Assembly: GCA_030427215.1 (NCBI GenBank)
Contig: JAUHXB010000037.1
Span: 1 to 9,081, forward strand
Reading direction: 5' to 3'
DNA length: 9,081 nucleotides
Source: Alphaproteobacteria bacterium
Lineage (GTDB): Bacteria; Pseudomonadota; Alphaproteobacteria; Micavibrionales; UBA1664
Shown here: in pieces, positions 483 through 8,233 of the stretch
Layout of the letters: each line of letters starts with the position of its first letter
Position numbering within the stretch: the stretch's first letter is position 1
The notes under the pieces: model-generated
Told to the model about the DNA's origin: nothing
What the model saw: the letters and a program-made list of their open reading frames with translations, nothing else
Databases searched by the model: none
Position numbers and translations under genes: made by a program

Positions 483-1268
483 CTATTCACAAATTGCAAA
501 TCGCGCCGCTAAATTTTGATCAGAAAACGCAACATCCCCAACCCTATAGGTTTTATTATCAGAAATGATTTGCATCAAATGAATGCTGTCATATTCGTCT
601 TTGGTATCACGATAATAAGGGTTATTCAAAATATCCTGTTGTAAAAATCGATCTAAATACGATGTTTGATCATCTGGTGACGTGGTCAAACATGCCAAAA
701 TATTTTTGGAAATATTTTTTGCACCAAATGTCACGCCATCATCTATCATATCATCCATAAGAGACAAGGTATTATGATCGCATTGATGAACACGGTCATA
801 ATTTGAAAACCACAGATTAAAAGCCGCGGTCATCGTTTGACGTGATGCGTCTTGATCATCATGGCTTAACGATAGTTTTTCCAACATTTTCTCAAAAACC
901 AGCACCATGTCTGATATATCCGAGCATAAAAGATATTTCCACAATAATGATTGGCCATCCAATTTCATGTTATAGGCATGAATAATTTTTTGAACCTGAC
1001 AATCTGCAACGCATATGCGCCCCGCCAATAAAACCTGTTCAGGGTGGTATTGCTCAATCGTGCCATTTAACCATTCAACATGTCGTGCCATACGTATGGC
1101 TTCGATTTCTGCTAGATCGACCTGAGATTGAAAATATGGAGATTGATTAAGTTGAGTTTTACTCAATCCAAAATTATGAACGATAATAATTCTGCGATCC
1201 GTATCCAAATCATACGGCAGATCATTCAGATCACGATATTCAATCATCCAATCTTTTAAAATAACCAT
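483..1268 (-). CDS. Hypothetical protein, divergent relative of the DUF6782-like protein encoded just upstream
   Basis: The product has 261 residues, no signal peptide and no obvious membrane segment, so it is probably cytoplasmic. I do not recognise it with certainty. Residues about 76-110 (PEQVLLAGR, then VADC, ending at W110) align by eye with residues 199-233 of the upstream gene's product (PEEAVLINR, then EADS, ending at W233). Residues 146-175 (AAFNLWF, D164, then L..MDDM) match its STFEKWF...D...I..M stretch. The two genes therefore look like diverged tandem duplicates. If the ancestor was a DUF6782-type putative metallopeptidase, the presumed metal ligands are mostly lost: the expected EAD is VAD, and only an RH at 62-63 resembles the zinc helix. 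The frame stays open further upstream to 1520, but that part lies in the preceding gene. The ATG at 1268 follows that gene's stop by 4 bp and has GAGGG about 10 nt before it, so I chose it. Function is unknown. Confidence 0.75.
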   Translation of the reverse strand: MVILKDWMIEYRDLNDLPYDLDTDRRIIIVHNFGLSKTQLNQSPYFQSQVDLAEIEAIRMARHVEWLNGTIEQYHPEQVLLAGRICVADCQVQKIIHAYNMKLDGQSLLWKYLLCSDISDMVLVFEKMLEKLSLSHDDQDASRQTMTAAFNLWFSNYDRVHQCDHNTLSLMDDMIDDGVTFGAKNISKNILACLTTSPDDQTSYLDRFLQQDILNNPYYRDTKDEYDSIHLMQIISDNKTYRVGDVAFSDQNLAARFAICE

Positions 1269-1272
1269 GTCT

Positions 1273-2520
1273 TTAAAGCCCTCTGAAATGATCGAGGAAG
1301 AAGAGACTGGCGTGCTCTGAAGTGTTAAGTTCATATGTTCCATTTTGCGTGTGACCTTGTGGCAAAGTAATGACATTGTCATGGTTGTTCTGTGTTTCAA
1401 TTTCGCTTTTTTCGTCACTTTGCAATTCTTGTTCCATATCAGACATTCGGCGTTCAAATGACACAAACCATAGGAAATTTGCATTTGATCTATCCCTAAC
1501 CTCGCCATAAAGTGCATCATTCATAATTTGAACCACGATTTGCGATAAATAATTGTCGGCCTGCGGTACACGGCCCAAACCGGCAATAATATCCATTGCA
1601 ATGACGCGCGATGCGTCACGATCATTAATTTCCAAATCCGTATGGCCGCCCATCATAATTTGAATGATATTGCGATCAATTTGTTTACAACGGCCCGAAA
1701 TAAACCATTTTTCGAATGTTGAACGCATCGCCAATCCTGATTTTATTGATCTAAAATCCGCCATGGCCTCCATCGCATAGGCAGAACATAAATCATAATT
1801 GGCACCGCACATGGCACGCGCCCAAACATCATGATGTCCGGCCAAATTTAAATCCCATAATAGTGCAACCTCGGCTATATCGCTATCTGCCTCGATTAAC
1901 CGGTTAATTAAAACAGCTTCCTCTGGTAAGAAGGATAATGGGTTTAATAAAACACCATTATGGTCATGCCAGGCCAAACGCATTGATTTGATGAAAGCAA
2001 CAGACGCATCCGTTATATTCAGGCTTGGATTAATCTGAATTGTTTTTTTCGTGGCAATGTAATGCGATGTCTTAATCTGTTTTGATAATTTGATATCAAT
2101 ATTTTTATCGATAATAAAATCATAATAAGATTTAAAAATGCTGCTTTGTTGACCGTAATTTATGATGTCATCTAAAGACAAATCCTCATTGTCATTATTC
2201 AATAGTTGATCAAAATTATCTTCGGGTGTTACGATGTCAAATTGAGATAAAGATTTCGCGGCGCGATCATAAGATTCAATTTTTTGACGCATCTTTGCCA
2301 AGAATTTTTCATCAGATGGTAACAAAGCCGTTGGCATGGCTTGGTCTTCTTCCACAAATAAAAATTCATCTTCGTCTGCGCTATCATCAATGTAAAATAA
2401 CGGCTGATCACCAATAATATTGCTGAGGGCTTTTGAGCCTTGATCGCCGGCATGACATGAAACACGAACCGATTGCGGCCCTTGATATTGAAAATCGTAA
2501 TCCCAAATTGGCTTATCCAT
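1273..2520 (-). CDS. DUF6782-like putative metallopeptidase-family protein, probably catalytically degenerate
   Basis: The product has 415 residues and no signal peptide or membrane segment. An acidic stretch (44-60) and a variable, charged linker (about 60-150) precede a helical core (155-290). The core pattern is a short helix with RLAW at 181-184, then LPEEAVLINRLIEADSD (198-213), LAGHHDVWARAM (226-237) and AMRSTFEKWF (264-273). It resembles, from memory, the alphaproteobacterial DUF6782 putative metallopeptidases, whose helix carries a HExxH-type motif followed by an EAD acid. Here the helix reads KSMRLAW, so both histidines and the glutamate appear lost while the later EAD (210-212) remains, suggesting a pseudoenzyme. 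The C-terminal tail (361-415) is polar and low in structure. The ATG at 2520 has AGGGG 8 nt upstream. The gene is followed after 4 bp by a shorter relative on the same strand, which argues for one operon. Family assignment is tentative. Confidence 0.8.
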   Translation of the reverse strand: MDKPIWDYDFQYQGPQSVRVSCHAGDQGSKALSNIIGDQPLFYIDDSADEDEFLFVEEDQAMPTALLPSDEKFLAKMRQKIESYDRAAKSLSQFDIVTPEDNFDQLLNNDNEDLSLDDIINYGQQSSIFKSYYDFIIDKNIDIKLSKQIKTSHYIATKKTIQINPSLNITDASVAFIKSMRLAWHDHNGVLLNPLSFLPEEAVLINRLIEADSDIAEVALLWDLNLAGHHDVWARAMCGANYDLCSAYAMEAMADFRSIKSGLAMRSTFEKWFISGRCKQIDRNIIQIMMGGHTDLEINDRDASRVIAMDIIAGLGRVPQADNYLSQIVVQIMNDALYGEVRDRSNANFLWFVSFERRMSDMEQELQSDEKSEIETQNNHDNVITLPQGHTQNGTYELNTSEHASLFFLDHFRGL

Positions 2521-2558
2521 TTTTTTATCCCCTAAAAATAAATTCGGATTTATCCCTT
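2513..2558. promoter_or_regulatory. Three TTATCC (DnaA-box-like) elements at the 5' end of the DUF6782-like gene
   Basis: TTATCCATT (2513-2521), TTATCCCCT (2525-2533) and TTATCCCTT (2550-2558) share the TTATCC core of the DnaA box TTATCCACA in the same orientation, at spacings of 12 and 25 bp. Each matches the 9-mer at only six or seven positions. The first lies over the start codon and second codon of the leftward gene. They may be weak DnaA sites belonging to the origin region, or sites for DnaA control of the leftward operon. Binding is inferred only. Confidence 0.3.
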
Positions 2559-2565
2559 AATCTTT

Positions 2566-2613
2566 TAACAGTATCGCCAAAAGACCTTAACAATTTGCTA
2601 GGAAAACCCTAAC
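2566..2613. repeat. TAAC elements at exact 22-bp spacing upstream of the DUF6782-like gene
   Basis: TAACA occurs at 2566, 2588 and 2610, that is at exactly 22-bp intervals (two helical turns, one DNA face). The surrounding bases are also alike (CCTTAACAA, CCCTAACAA). A further TAAC at 2647 belongs to the CtrA-type site. The arrangement looks like a phased operator for a DNA-binding protein controlling the leftward operon, or part of the replication-control region. The protein is unknown. Confidence 0.35.
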
Positions 2614-2645
2614 AAATCCTAAATTTTTTCAACTTTTTCAGAAGG

Positions 2646-2660
2646 TTAACAGGATGTTAA
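2646..2660 (-). promoter_or_regulatory. Perfect CtrA-type binding site (TTAA-N7-TTAA)
   Basis: The minus strand reads TTAACATCCTGTTAAC, matching the full alphaproteobacterial CtrA consensus TTAA-N7-TTAAC including the final C. It lies in the 144-bp gap between the 200-aa hypothetical gene and the DUF6782-like gene, about 125 bp before the latter's start and 5 bp beyond the former's stop. It could drive or repress the leftward operon, or act with the origin, where CtrA sites occur in Caulobacter. By my rough estimate about one such match per window of this composition is expected by chance, so its position is the main support. Confidence 0.45.
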
Positions 2661-2664
2661 ATGA

Positions 2665-3267
2665 TTATGATAAGTTTTTAATAGGAAGATCACTTATTAT
2701 CAGGGACTTATCATGAATGGATACTTCACCAGATTGTGAAATATTAAATGCCACAGCGAACAAAGATTGTTTCAAAATACAAATGATCGTTATGCGATGG
2801 CATTCTTTCACCAATTCCACCTTTGGATATTTCTCAATTTCCAATGCAATATTATTCAAAATATTTTGCGATACAGAATCCTGCCATTCAATATCATCAA
2901 ATTGTGTAACAGGGATTAAAGATCCCCCATCCGTTTGAAACATCATCAAATAAAATTTCAAATAATCTAAAACAGTATTGTTATCTAAAGATAGATCCAT
3001 CGATGACAGGCCATTATCATTATACGGATCAGATGAATATAGAACGGGTTTTATATCCGAATTTTTCTTAAGATATAAAGCCCGAACATGGGGCATGCCA
3101 GAATAATCCTGACATTCAATTAACGTCGCATTTGATGCAAAAGGCAATGTCCAGGATAATACCTCGGTATGATTTATATTTAGAGGTATCGTGTTATCAC
3201 GATCCAAAATATTTTTAACAATGGATTGGCCCTGAGATTGTGATAATTTTTTATATGCCGATGTCAT
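2665..3267 (-). CDS. Hypothetical origin-proximal protein of about 200 aa
   Basis: The product is a soluble-looking protein of 200 residues without a signal peptide. A short N-terminal helix (about 1-22) is followed by an alternating strand/helix region: VLSWTLPFAS (36-45), GMPHVRALYLKK (57-68), LDYLKFYLMMF (100-110), IPVTQFDDIEW (118-128), a strand pair (157-176), and a C-terminal ISDLPIKNL (191-199). The pattern of RALYL, a helix ending in MMF, DDIEW and a terminal DLPI resembles, from memory, an uncharacterised alphaproteobacterial family, but I cannot name it. I chose the ATG at 3267, which has a weak GTAAGA 9 nt upstream. An in-frame TTG at 3303 would add 12 residues but has no ribosome site. 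The gene is the first leftward one beside the candidate origin and diverges from hemE. Its AT content is high, like the flanking non-coding DNA. Function is unknown. Confidence 0.8.
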   Translation of the reverse strand: MTSAYKKLSQSQGQSIVKNILDRDNTIPLNINHTEVLSWTLPFASNATLIECQDYSGMPHVRALYLKKNSDIKPVLYSSDPYNDNGLSSMDLSLDNNTVLDYLKFYLMMFQTDGGSLIPVTQFDDIEWQDSVSQNILNNIALEIEKYPKVELVKECHRITIICILKQSLFAVAFNISQSGEVSIHDKSLIISDLPIKNLS

Positions 3268-3295
3268 AGAATATAGTCTTACTGATTTGTATAAC

Positions 3296-3580
3296 TTATC
3301 CAATAATCATGTGCATAGTTTTTGTATGTTCCTCTGTATTGAATCCCACTCTTTTTTTTCGTGGATAAAGTCATGTCATTTTGGAACTATTTTATAAGGT
3401 TGTTGGGATAAAAAATAGAGATGTATAAAAAACGAATATCATTTTCACGTTATTATCCATCTTATGAGTCCGCGATCTATCCCCATGAGGATAAGATGAT
3501 TGAATAATGATTTACCCCCATGACTCACAGGACCTACAAATACTTAAACCTTATTTAAAATAATATTTCTTATTTTATTT
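3296..3580. other. Candidate chromosomal replication origin (oriC)
   Basis: This AT-rich, essentially non-coding stretch lies next to hemE, from which genes diverge, matching the hemE-RP001 origin position known in Caulobacter and Rickettsia. Against the DnaA box TTATCCACA it shows, on the minus strand, TTATCCACG (3360-3368) and TTATCCTCA (3486-3494), each 8/9, and TTATCCCAA (3403-3411), 7/9. On the plus strand it has TTATCCAAT (3296-3304), TTATCCATC (3453-3461) and CTATCCCCA (3477-3485), each 7/9. GANTC methylation sites occur at 3341, 3466 and 3522. A perfect CtrA-type site sits at 3544-3558, inside a block (3538-3580) that is almost all A and T and could be the unwinding element. An inverted repeat, CATCTTAT (3458-3465) with ATAAGATG (3491-3498), overlaps two of the boxes. 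The first box reaches into the upstream coding region only if the TTG start of that gene is used. Origin activity is inferred. Confidence 0.6.
3544..3558. promoter_or_regulatory. Perfect CtrA-type binding site ahead of hemE, inside the AT-rich block
   Basis: The sequence TTAAACCTTATTTAA is a perfect TTAA-N7-TTAA half-site pair, the pattern bound by the cell-cycle regulator CtrA. It ends 51 bp before the hemE start and lies in the block proposed as the DNA-unwinding element. In Caulobacter, CtrA bound at such sites silences the origin and also affects hemE transcription. The high AT content makes a chance match more likely here, so support rests on its place beside the DnaA-like boxes. Confidence 0.45.
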
Positions 3581-3609
3581 TGGGCGATATTCGGTCTAGG
3601 ATGCATTCC

Positions 3610-4626
3610 ATGGAATTGATCAAAGCCCTCAAAAAACAACCAACCAATCATACACCAATTTGGCTGATGCGCCAGGCAGGACGCTATCTTCCTGAATACC
3701 GAGAGGTCAGAAAGCAAGCTGGTGGTTTTTTAGATTTATGCTATACGCCTAAATTGGCCAGTGAGGTAACGCTTCAACCCTTGCGTCGTTTTGATTTGGA
3801 TGCGGCAATTATATTTTCTGATATTTTAGTTGTTCCTCATGCGCTTGGTCAAAAGGTCTGGTTCCAAGAGGGCGAGGGTCCGCGATTAAACCTAGTAACA
3901 TCAATCAATGATCTTCCTGAATTTAACCAAGATCAATTTTTAGATCATCTTGCGCCCGTGTTTGAAGCATTGGAATTAACGCGCTCCGCTATGCCGTCTG
4001 ATAAAGCCTTGATAGGGTTTGCAGGGGCGCCATGGACTTTAGCCTGTTATATGATTAATGGCCGTGGGTCGCGTGATTATCAAAATGTCCGTGTGTTTGC
4101 CCGTCAAAATAAACAAGAATTTCAAATGATTTTAGATACGCTAGTGCATGCGATATCAATCTATCTGATCCAAAAAATTAAATCAGGGGCAAACGCCATC
4201 CAAATATTTGACAGCTGGTCAGGGGTGTTGAGTGTTGAAGAATTTCAAAATTATTCAATCGACCCAACCAAAAAAATTATTGAGAATGTGAAAGCCGTTT
4301 ACCCGGATATTCCTATTATTGGTTTTCCAAGGGGCGCAGGATTAAATTATACCGATTATATTAAAAACACGGCCATTGACGCAGTGTCATGCGATCAATC
4401 GGTACCATTATTATTCATGAAAGAGTTTCAAAAAGATGTATGCGTGCAGGGGAATTTGGATAATATTTTATTGCTCAATGGTGGTGATGACATGGTTGGT
4501 CAAGCCCAAGAAATTTGTAATTCACTTGCCAATGGGCCATTTATCTTTAATCTGGGGCATGGCGTTATTAAAGACACAAACCCCGATCACGTCACACAAT
4601 TGATAGAGGCAATACGATCATGTTAG
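3610..4626 (+). CDS. hemE: Uroporphyrinogen decarboxylase
   Basis: This cytoplasmic enzyme removes four acetate carboxyls from uroporphyrinogen III to give coproporphyrinogen III in haem synthesis. The 338-aa product has the family signature IWLMRQAGRYLPEYR (17-31), with substrate-contacting R21 and R25. It also has the catalytic aspartate in FSDIL (D71), the FAGAPWTL motif (137-144), the conserved tyrosine Y147, the IFDSWSG segment (199-205) and the NLGHGV histidine (H317), all as expected. Length is slightly below the 345-355 aa usual in the family. I start it at ATG 3610, which has TAGGA 8 nt upstream and gives the usual short N-terminus. The upstream ATG at 3601 has its ribosome site too close, and a TTG at 3580 lies further out. 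The 3' end overlaps hemJ by 7 bp (ATGTTAG), implying translational coupling. No hemH lies next to it, unlike in some relatives. Confidence 0.97.
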   Translation: MELIKALKKQPTNHTPIWLMRQAGRYLPEYREVRKQAGGFLDLCYTPKLASEVTLQPLRRFDLDAAIIFSDILVVPHALGQKVWFQEGEGPRLNLVTSINDLPEFNQDQFLDHLAPVFEALELTRSAMPSDKALIGFAGAPWTLACYMINGRGSRDYQNVRVFARQNKQEFQMILDTLVHAISIYLIQKIKSGANAIQIFDSWSGVLSVEEFQNYSIDPTKKIIENVKAVYPDIPIIGFPRGAGLNYTDYIKNTAIDAVSCDQSVPLLFMKEFQKDVCVQGNLDNILLLNGGDDMVGQAQEICNSLANGPFIFNLGHGVIKDTNPDHVTQLIEAIRSC

Positions 4627-6502: not shown

Positions 6503-6721
6503 ATGGAAAAAATATCTAAATATTTTTGTGATTTAGCTAAATCAAAAGATCGAATGTTAAAAATATTTTATAACGTCGCCCTTCCTGGTTCTGTTGCAGG
6601 GATGTTTACTCTTTCTGAGAAAGTTGCGTTAGGTGTAACGGGATTATTAATTATTCACGAAGTTATGAGAGATATTATTTCACAACAAGATTGTAAATCC
6701 CCAAAACCCGCCCCAAAGTAA
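6503..6721 (+). CDS. Small hypothetical, possibly membrane-associated protein
   Basis: A 72-aa frame begins 14 bp after rho. A basic amphipathic N-terminus (1-22, lysine-rich) is followed by a hydrophobic stretch (about 24-52: ALPGSVAGMF, then VALGVTGLLII) that could form one membrane helix or a hairpin. A short polar tail ends in KSPKPAPK. No strong Shine-Dalgarno is visible, and codon choice is more AT-rich than in rho. The last 42 bp overlap the end of the convergent zinc-motif gene. I do not recognise a family. Co-transcription with rho is likely if it is real, because no terminator is seen between them. The protein-like composition and the otherwise empty gap favour a real gene, but only moderately. 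Confidence 0.5.
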   Translation: MEKISKYFCDLAKSKDRMLKIFYNVALPGSVAGMFTLSEKVALGVTGLLIIHEVMRDIISQQDCKSPKPAPK

Positions 6722-8233
6722 GATATTCCCAATCAAACCATAAAGTCCTGCCTTACCCACGGGGGGCATCTTTTTGGTGGGGATTCCAATATCTTTCATC
6801 ACCGATTGAAACGTGAAATACCCAACAGTTTTAATAGATGATAATGTGACAAATAATCCCAAAATCAATGGAATTCCATCCATGATCATTTGAATATTTT
6901 GGGATTGGTTATCTTTCATATCTGCGCCTATCCCATACATAAACCACAGATAATTAATCAATAATGATACCGCTAACCCCACGCCAAGGCCGATATATCG
7001 CGGTCGGCGCGTTATGCGTTTTTCAGCGCTATAGGCATATTTAACAAAGCTTTGGAGTGTTTTTTTCGTGAGGCCAAGGTTGTATGTTTTTTGTAATTCA
7101 ATCGCGGCACGCTTCATGCCCTTTTGCGCGATCAGACCTAATGTTTCACGTGAAACACGGCTGTCGTTACAGACTTCTTTTAATAATCCAGCGACAAATC
7201 CGTTTCCTTTTGCCGCCATGGTGATTTTTTCCATCTCGGGCTGAATCAGGTCGTCCATGAAATTTCCGCTATCACACACTGCGCCTTTTAATCCCGCCTG
7301 ATGAATTTTATAGGGTGTTTTGCCAATGATAAATTGCGTCACCGCCCACGGCATTGCCGCCTCGTATTCAATCACATTATGATCGGGTGCGTCTTTATCT
7401 TCCACGGCATGATTGACCTGTTTAATTGTGATATGCCCGCCTTCGGCAAGAGCCACCGCTCCAATTTTCGAGGCCATGATTTTGGGATAAGGATCCATAT
7501 CATCCATCAACACATCCCCATGAACATTCAATTGCGGAGTGATCGTGGCATGGTTGGAATTTTTCCCTTGTCCCGCGCAATTGTCACAAGACAGCGTTCC
7601 CTTTGATTGACAATGTGGGCATGGTGACATTTTTTGCCCACGACATTGCGTACACATAATTTCTCCACGTCCTTGACAGGCTTGGCAAGGTTGCATCTCT
7701 CCACCCGCCTGAACTTGTCGTGCACCATTACATTGAAGACACCGCATCATTCCGGTTGAATAACATAATTGGCATTGTATGAGGCCACGTCCCTGGCACG
7801 GCGAACACGCTGTCATTTTTTGTCCCTGACATTTTTGGCAAACAACATGTTCGGTGAGGGTCAGTTTATCTTGTGGTAAGGGGATGTTCTGCTTATCCGT
7901 TGCAAATCCCTTATGCGGCAATGATTCAATGATATCTTTAGCCTTGCTGTCCAATGTTTCTTTCGCGGCGAAACTGTTGAGATATGTATCTATTTCCTTT
8001 TGTAATTCGCCTTGTTTAATGACGCGACCTTTGGTTTTATCGCCCTTTTCTGATATGGTTTGAACATCACAATCCAATTCGAAGTATGTTTTGCCTGTCA
8101 TGACATCCAACCCTTGCTTAACGATTGTGAGTTTAATATCAGCAGGGTCAACGCCATTGCCCTCAACTTGTTTTTGAATGCGTTGTTCGACTTTCTTGAT
8201 AAATTCAGGTGGGTATGTATAGTCATCGGACAT
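6680..8233 (-). CDS. Membrane-anchored protein with eight DnaJ-type CxxC zinc motifs and no J domain
   Basis: The product has 517 residues. The N-terminal region (1-125) is soluble and charged. Then come eight CxxC pairs starting at residues 132, 143, 154, 165, 183, 194, 205 and 216. These are two blocks of four at exactly 11-residue steps with an 18-residue step between blocks, many reading CxxCxGxG as in the DnaJ cysteine-rich domain. Residues 225-405 form a mixed region without a recognised motif. Three hydrophobic segments follow (about 413-436, 453-476 and 495-517), so the protein is probably anchored in the inner membrane by its C-terminus. No HPD motif or J domain is present, so it is not a DnaJ co-chaperone; a zinc-dependent protein-binding or redox role is an inference. 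The frame is open to 8332, but the ATG at 8233 avoids overlap with the divergent gene and lies 7 nt after a TATACT box, with no ribosome site. A perfect parS lies inside it at 7142-7157. Confidence 0.88.
   Translation of the reverse strand: MSDDYTYPPEFIKKVEQRIQKQVEGNGVDPADIKLTIVKQGLDVMTGKTYFELDCDVQTISEKGDKTKGRVIKQGELQKEIDTYLNSFAAKETLDSKAKDIIESLPHKGFATDKQNIPLPQDKLTLTEHVVCQKCQGQKMTACSPCQGRGLIQCQLCYSTGMMRCLQCNGARQVQAGGEMQPCQACQGRGEIMCTQCRGQKMSPCPHCQSKGTLSCDNCAGQGKNSNHATITPQLNVHGDVLMDDMDPYPKIMASKIGAVALAEGGHITIKQVNHAVEDKDAPDHNVIEYEAAMPWAVTQFIIGKTPYKIHQAGLKGAVCDSGNFMDDLIQPEMEKITMAAKGNGFVAGLLKEVCNDSRVSRETLGLIAQKGMKRAAIELQKTYNLGLTKKTLQSFVKYAYSAEKRITRRPRYIGLGVGLAVSLLINYLWFMYGIGADMKDNQSQNIQMIMDGIPLILGLFVTLSSIKTVGYFTFQSVMKDIGIPTKKMPPVGKAGLYGLIGNILLWGGFWGFTILL
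7142..7157. other. parS centromere site (perfect 16/16)
   Basis: TGTTTCACGTGAAACA is the exact palindromic consensus bound by ParB in chromosome segregation. It lies inside the leftward zinc-motif gene, where it encodes VSRET. A perfect 16-bp match is very unlikely by chance. parS sites cluster near the origin, and parAB commonly lies a few genes beyond mnmE (mnmE-mnmG-rsmG-parA-parB) in alphaproteobacteria, so the location fits well. Confidence 0.93.
7577..7840 (-). repeat. 33-bp-periodic coding repeat for the eight CxxC motifs
   Basis: This stretch encodes residues 132-219 of the membrane protein. Cysteine pairs recur every 11 codons (33 bp) in two groups of four, with one 54-bp step between the groups. 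The repeat is strict at protein level but diverged in DNA sequence, so it reflects old duplication kept by selection for zinc binding rather than a recent expansion. Confidence 0.8.
8196..8223 (+). promoter_or_regulatory. Predicted promoter for the DUF6489-type gene and mnmE
   Basis: TTGATA (8196-8201, 5/6 to TTGACA) and TATAGT (8218-8223, 5/6 to TATAAT) are separated by 16 bp. Transcription would start near 8230, giving a 28-nt leader with AAAGGAAAG (8246-8254) just before the ATG at 8258. The whole promoter lies within the first codons of the divergent leftward gene. Confidence 0.5.

Follow-up and report, generated by a model that had tools for sequence, protein, structure and literature searches.

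A probable hemE-linked replication origin with a BUS-like unwinding unit in a Micavibrio-like alphaproteobacterium

The window, that is the whole stretch of DNA analysed, is a 9081 bp contig (C235) of a Micavibrio-like genome (G000) comprising 1.49 Mb in 293 contigs. As the first-pass annotation had stated, genes diverge from a gap of 342 bases (3268-3609) upstream of hemE. The hemE gene, coding for uroporphyrinogen decarboxylase (PF01208), occupies 3610-4626 on the plus strand, and a gene for a 200-aa protein of unknown function (2665-3267) reads from a conserved ATG at 3267 on the minus strand. The latter gene lies beside the gap, on the strand opposite to hemE, in all 48 genomes of the order that were examined. 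Further to the left the minus strand codes for two DUF6782 proteins (1273-2520 and 483-1520, the true start of the second being probably internal) and for a ppsR-type kinase/pyrophosphorylase (PF03618, 2-457) that runs off the window and that we take to be COG1806, the family named beside the Caulobacter and Rickettsia origins. Rightward of the gap the plus strand carries hemE, a gene for a UPF0093 protein (presumably hemJ-type), rho and mnmE, the last two being separated by a gene on the minus strand that codes for a cysteine-rich protein.

The 200-aa gene and the DUF6782 pair also occur together in G046, G005, G006 and L049. The 200-aa family has three copies in the genome of the window (on contigs C235, C84 and C201); in a sample of 192 genomes from the class, 15 gave a match. 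Structure prediction yielded a confident fold (pLDDT 92.7), for which no clear match was found in the PDB. As the protein has paralogues, no role at the origin is claimed for it. The minus-strand protein encoded at 6680-8230 contains repeated CxxC motifs and is weakly DnaJ-like, under the cut-off; homologues were detected by tblastn near rho in G002, G003, G004, G046, G005 and G006.

Nine DnaA-box-like 9-mers were found in the gap, two of them agreeing with TTATCCACA in eight of nine positions (3360 and 3486, both on the minus strand) and seven in seven of nine. This number was not reached by any of 1000 first-order shuffles (mean 1.8). The six boxes listed previously (two at 8/9 and four at 7/9) were thus an undercount. 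The cluster includes TTATCCAAT (3296-3304, plus strand), CTATGCACA (3310-3318, minus), TTATCCACG (3360-3368, minus, 8/9), TTATCCCAA (3403-3411, minus), TTATCCATC (3453-3461, plus), CTATCCCCA (3477-3485, plus) and TTATCCTCA (3486-3494, minus, 8/9). TTATCC cores occur five times in the gap (shuffle mean 0.48, reached in 0 of 1000), and no other 400-bp stretch of the window has as many. Nine cores lie in 2513-3494, one more than the eight reported from a hand count, and five in the remainder, which agrees with the earlier estimate of about five. The corresponding gap of the same-genus genome G004 is the only 400-bp window with six cores on contig G004:C2; TTATCC counts in G005 and G046 did not single out the origin. 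A cluster of boxes exceeding chance, as expected of a hemE-linked origin, is present in the gap. A bipartite origin making use of the TTATCC group at 2513-2550 was also considered and rejected, since this group is not repeated in four genus-mates: of its three cores, the one at 2513 falls on the start codon of the adjacent gene, while the other two recur in none of the four relatives.

Other motifs claimed for the gap were found there as well. The three GANTC sites (3341-3345, 3466-3470 and 3522-3526) are at chance level (shuffle mean 1.3, P 0.14). There is one perfect, CtrA-like TTAA-N7-TTAA (3544-3558; shuffle mean 0.045, P 0.039), and two further copies lie elsewhere in the window, at 2646 and 5043. 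The AT-rich block (3538-3581) contains the joint most AT-rich 40 bp of the window: 40-bp segments starting at 3538-3542 are 90% A+T, a maximum tied with the starts 2098-2100.

Four genus-mates (G001, G002, G003 and G004) were available for comparison, so that the genus set counts five members including the genome of the window. The gaps of the five align, and each contains several TTATCC-type cores within 320 bp before hemE; the box cluster, on whose conservation in close relatives the origin claim had been made to depend, was thus found in 5/5. Three blocks of the alignment are conserved. The first consists of GTATAA (5/5) followed by a TTATCCAATA-like box, the nine bases of the box at 3296-3304 being identical in three of the five members. 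The second is TGTGnA followed by TGTATGTTC, the longest invariant run, which in the window is immediately preceded by the box at 3310-3318. The third is a hemE-proximal box pair followed by CTA and an AT-rich run. In addition, the GGATA core of the box at 3360-3368 is present in all five genomes, and the TTATCC core of the box at 3486-3494 is equally far from the hemE match (-121) in G004 and G002. The segment 3310-3331, which reads TGTGCATAG and then TTTTTGTATGTTC and holds the longest invariant run, lies outside the BUS-like unit described below.

Because the chromosome of the window's genome is in pieces, GC skew was examined in relatives. On G004:C2 (229,738 bp, same genus) the cumulative skew has its minimum at 170,943, 478 bp from the 5' end of hemE (170,465). 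In the complete genome of an order-mate, G046, 20 samples of 20 kb gave ten positive values between 0 and 1.13 Mb, a value near zero at 1.23 Mb and nine negative values thereafter; when the last and the first 20 kb were joined and positions counted from the start of the record, the skew minimum fell at +308 and hemE at +269. A 967-kb contig of the same family carrying both hemE and dnaA (G005:C4, 15 samples) has negative skew as far as about 695 kb, beyond which the values are for the most part weakly positive; this places the switch within 4 kb of the 5' end of hemE (691,498). No reversal was seen on the same-family contig G006:C21 (599 kb, hemE and dnaA), where 20 of 21 samples were negative and one was +0.016; G006 nevertheless carries the BUS-like unit at hemE (38.3 bits), and the missing flip might be due to weak skew, to rearrangement or to a mis-join. 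Skew thus reverses at hemE in three (G004, G046, G005) of the four relatives sampled.

These data also bear on a start of replication beside dnaA, with the hemE gap serving merely as a gene-regulatory DnaA/CtrA site. Many bacteria initiate replication at dnaA, and dnaA and dnaN do adjoin in the genome of the window (contig C260). A skew switch beside dnaA, which had been named as an observation that would speak against the gap, was however seen in none of G004, G046 and G005: all twelve 5-kb windows (60 kb) around dnaA of G004 have positive skew, the dnaA sample of G046 (385 kb) and its neighbours are likewise positive, and dnaA of G005, at 359 kb, is flanked by negative skew on both sides. 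Moreover, the 730 bp around the start of the window genome's own dnaA contain a single TTATCC core. We consider an origin at dnaA very improbable.

The hemE-proximal block of the genus alignment corresponds to a conserved unit of 57 bp (3512-3568, plus strand), which the first-pass annotation had overlooked. It starts with two abutting weak DnaA boxes, box 1 TTACCCCCA (3512-3520, two mismatches to TTATCCACA) and box 2 TGACTCACA (3521-3529, three mismatches, containing GACTC). These are followed by the short spacer GGAC (3530-3533), by the triplets CTA-CAA-ATA-CTT (3534-3545), which are the complement of DnaA-trios with the second off consensus, and by the AT-rich tract, the likely duplex-unwinding region (3538-3581). 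In relatives, too, an AT-rich run follows the triplets. The block recurs upstream of hemE in other families, often with clean CTACTA.

To score the unit, a 31-column matrix was derived by iteration from the 600 bp upstream of hemE in 43 genomes outside the genus, of which 42 were kept. The site in the window scored 34.9 bits and the next best in the window 11.4; none of 500 shuffles of the gap reached the former value (maximum 13.0). On G004:C2 the unit was the best site in 230 kb (23.8 versus 11.8 bits). When each genus was left out in turn, sites above 15 bits were obtained upstream of hemE and on its strand in 42 of 48 genomes and 24 of 26 genera, and in 0/48 on the opposite strand or in the first 1000 bp from the hemE start onwards. 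Six genomes, among them two entire genera, stayed below 15 bits. In this procedure the training sites had been chosen by a matrix that saw the other genera, hence the matrix test on the window's own genus is the cleaner one. In certain genomes, L014 for one, the box pair chosen by the matrix was not the one with the cleanest triplets. The upstream set comprised 48 of the 49 genomes with a hemE match; it omitted G013, whose match had 30% identity, and also a weaker second copy of hemE in G054. L013 (5.7 bits) was excluded from the set of 47 units used below.

Alternatively, 3512-3568 could serve hemE as its promoter or leader, with the origin located in the same gap but opening elsewhere. In each of the five genus members the best upstream match is on the hemE strand, at a nearly fixed distance of 98-102 bp ahead of the hemE match. 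Among the 20 sites of at least 30 bits, however, this distance varies from 98 to 292 bp with a constant 9+9+4 layout, and the layout fits the published description of BUS (tandem boxes, spacer 13). A promoter or leader is on these grounds an unlikely explanation of the block, and we favour an unwinding element.

Model R1, of 62 positions, was built from 23 sequences, none from the window's own genus, and was searched over 45 whole genomes of 55 and over 48 of 80 named loci. In the genome of the window the only significant match was 3512-3568 (E 2.2e-8; next 0.66), strict filters having passed 119 of 712 first-look candidates to scoring and the E-values being rough owing to a short calibration. 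No match was present at the genome's own dnaA at E ≤ 1, a further point against an origin there. At E ≤ 0.005, R1 gave 34 matches in 34 genomes, every one just upstream of hemE. Twenty-three of these genomes had supplied sequences to the model and 11 had not; the 11 include G053, which repeats a model member, and the five members of the window's genus (5/5 matched). In three further genomes the best match was at hemE but weak (E 0.04-0.32). The best match was not at hemE in eight of the 45 genomes: four had no hemE match, one had no R1 match, two were matched only elsewhere, and in one the hemE site was a weak third. R1 matched eight of the 48 named loci outside the genus at E ≤ 0.1, in every case upstream of hemE; one of the eight (L049) is a record of the model member G031. 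G018, G027, G029 and G045 had neither a hemE match nor an R1 match better than E 0.024. Although the stated completeness is ≥94% for three of them, these assemblies may lack the region; otherwise their origin may lie elsewhere.

With respect to the published rules for BUS, the box and spacer limits (first box up to two mismatches, second up to four, spacer up to 16) compare with values of 2, 3 and 13 in the window. Three or more consecutive triplets with a conserved middle base are absent, the series CTA-CAA-ATA-CTT being interrupted directly behind its initial CTA. G003, with CTA x4, is the only one of the five genus members to have the three triplets. Within the genus the triplet tract decays from CTA x4 (G003) to a single CTA (G004), and the box spacing is kept. 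Applied as coded to the 600 bp upstream of hemE, the published rule gave scattered matches and none at 3512; the conserved unit was located by comparison of relatives. As the three-in-a-row rule does not hold, the unit is called BUS-like and not a strict BUS; it is probably homologous to the BUS elements of the relatives.

It had been proposed that the origin is under cell-cycle control, by CtrA acting directly at 3544-3558 and by CcrM through the three GANTC. The genome does encode CtrA (NF045991, 393 bits, cut-off 350) and GcrA, as well as a CcrM-like gene truncated at the end of a contig, whose C-terminal piece scored 183 bits on 141 residues with NF050803, under the cut-off of 830. Over the 500-bp regions preceding hemE in 48 genomes, GANTC occurs 219 times (79 expected, 2.8-fold) and perfect TTAA-N7-TTAA six times (2.5 expected). 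The sites themselves, however, do not favour such control. The TTAA-N7-TTAA straddles the conserved junction between the last triplet and the AT-rich tract, overlapping both, and it is not in place in any of the four genus-mates, two of which have one near -181 to -188 and two none; TTAA is found at or near the second half of the site in three of the four and at the first half in 0/4. As to GANTC, the number in the window's gap has a P of 0.14, and the origin's number was matched by 103 other non-overlapping 400-bp windows on G004:C2, 25 in the samples of G005 and 19 in those of G046. GANTC density was for this reason rejected as a mark of the origin. The many GANTC-rich windows away from the origin agree with a report (PMC8116508) that most alphaproteobacterial chromosomes are enriched in GANTC between their genes. 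Direct CtrA and CcrM control of the gap is accordingly a weak proposition, and we regard it as doubtful.

One of the GANTC sites (3522-3526) lies within box 2. GANTC occurs within the tandem boxes in 15 of 47 units, 12 times in box 2 and three times at the junction; when each genus is represented by its first genome, the count is 7 of 25, compared with 2.8 in column shuffles (P 0.005). Because the question was chosen after the data had been seen, this enrichment is a lead only. It would be compatible with a CcrM site built into the unwinding element of Micavibrio-like bacteria, hemimethylation timing its re-opening by DnaA, an idea to which we give rather little credence. If true, replication would leave the opening site hemimethylated, and this would set when DnaA may re-open it.

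The proposal that the gap is the chromosomal origin is well supported by the skew in three of four relatives, the box cluster in all five genus members and the conserved unwinding-type element. Very probably, 3268-3609 is an oriC with a TTATCC-type box cluster for DnaA, and the duplex is predicted to open at the BUS-like unit at 3512-3568. From the arrangement of the elements we infer where DnaA would bind and melt the DNA, in which direction loading would proceed, and that the window genome's own chromosome starts replication here. DnaA would gather on the upstream boxes (3296-3494) and next occupy the two abutting weak boxes (3512-3529), which would orient it rightwards, towards hemE. The filament would extend over GGAC to the triplet-bearing strand (3534-3545), the AT-rich tract to about 3581 would melt and admit the helicase, and forks would depart both ways.

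The likely opening site of a Micavibrio-like chromosome is thereby narrowed to about 60 bp, and an origin model that can be searched genome-wide has been obtained. An element of BUS layout is conserved across most genera examined, and the window's own genus erodes its triplets; with these natural variants the tolerance of BUS to broken triplets becomes testable. A literature search covering titles and the beginnings of abstracts found no paper on a Micavibrio origin; the only one in the searched collection to mention both Micavibrio and oriC (PMC9418006) applies Ori-Finder to another bacterium.

According to PMC1914354, Caulobacter Cori and the Rickettsia origin likewise lie upstream of hemE, are AT-rich, contain a DnaA-box cluster and are flanked by divergent genes, with a ppsR-type gene on the opposite side. 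In those two bacteria the COG1806 gene directly adjoins the gap, whereas here the 200-aa gene and the two DUF6782 genes (483-3267, minus strand) separate the gap from ppsR. Cori has five CtrA sites; counting perfect sites, the gap has a single CtrA-like one, which is not conserved. Box 1 ends in TCCCCA, the weak W-box of Caulobacter (PMC4285127), in 8 of 47 units; in a further 16 of the 47 its ending is TCCCCG. In contrast to the W-boxes, the weak box here belongs to a tandem that precedes a triplet tract, and in the window it reads CCCCCA. The basal origin unwinding system (BUS), according to PMC8287927 and PMC6669920, resembles the unit in its tandem boxes, in the 13 bases from the first box to the triplets, in CTA as the first triplet (3'-GAT-5' on the opposite strand) and in the AT-rich DNA that follows. 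The elements described in PMC8287927 mostly have a pair of boxes, the first nearer the consensus, then a short GC-rich region and 3'-GAT-5' triplets, with the distance from main box to triplets peaking at 10-13 bases. Unlike there, both boxes in the window are off consensus, and the second triplet, CAA, breaks the three-in-a-row rule. The gap of this Micavibrio-like lineage is likely to be a hemE-linked alphaproteobacterial origin of an ordinary kind, in which a BUS-like opening site has been newly located.
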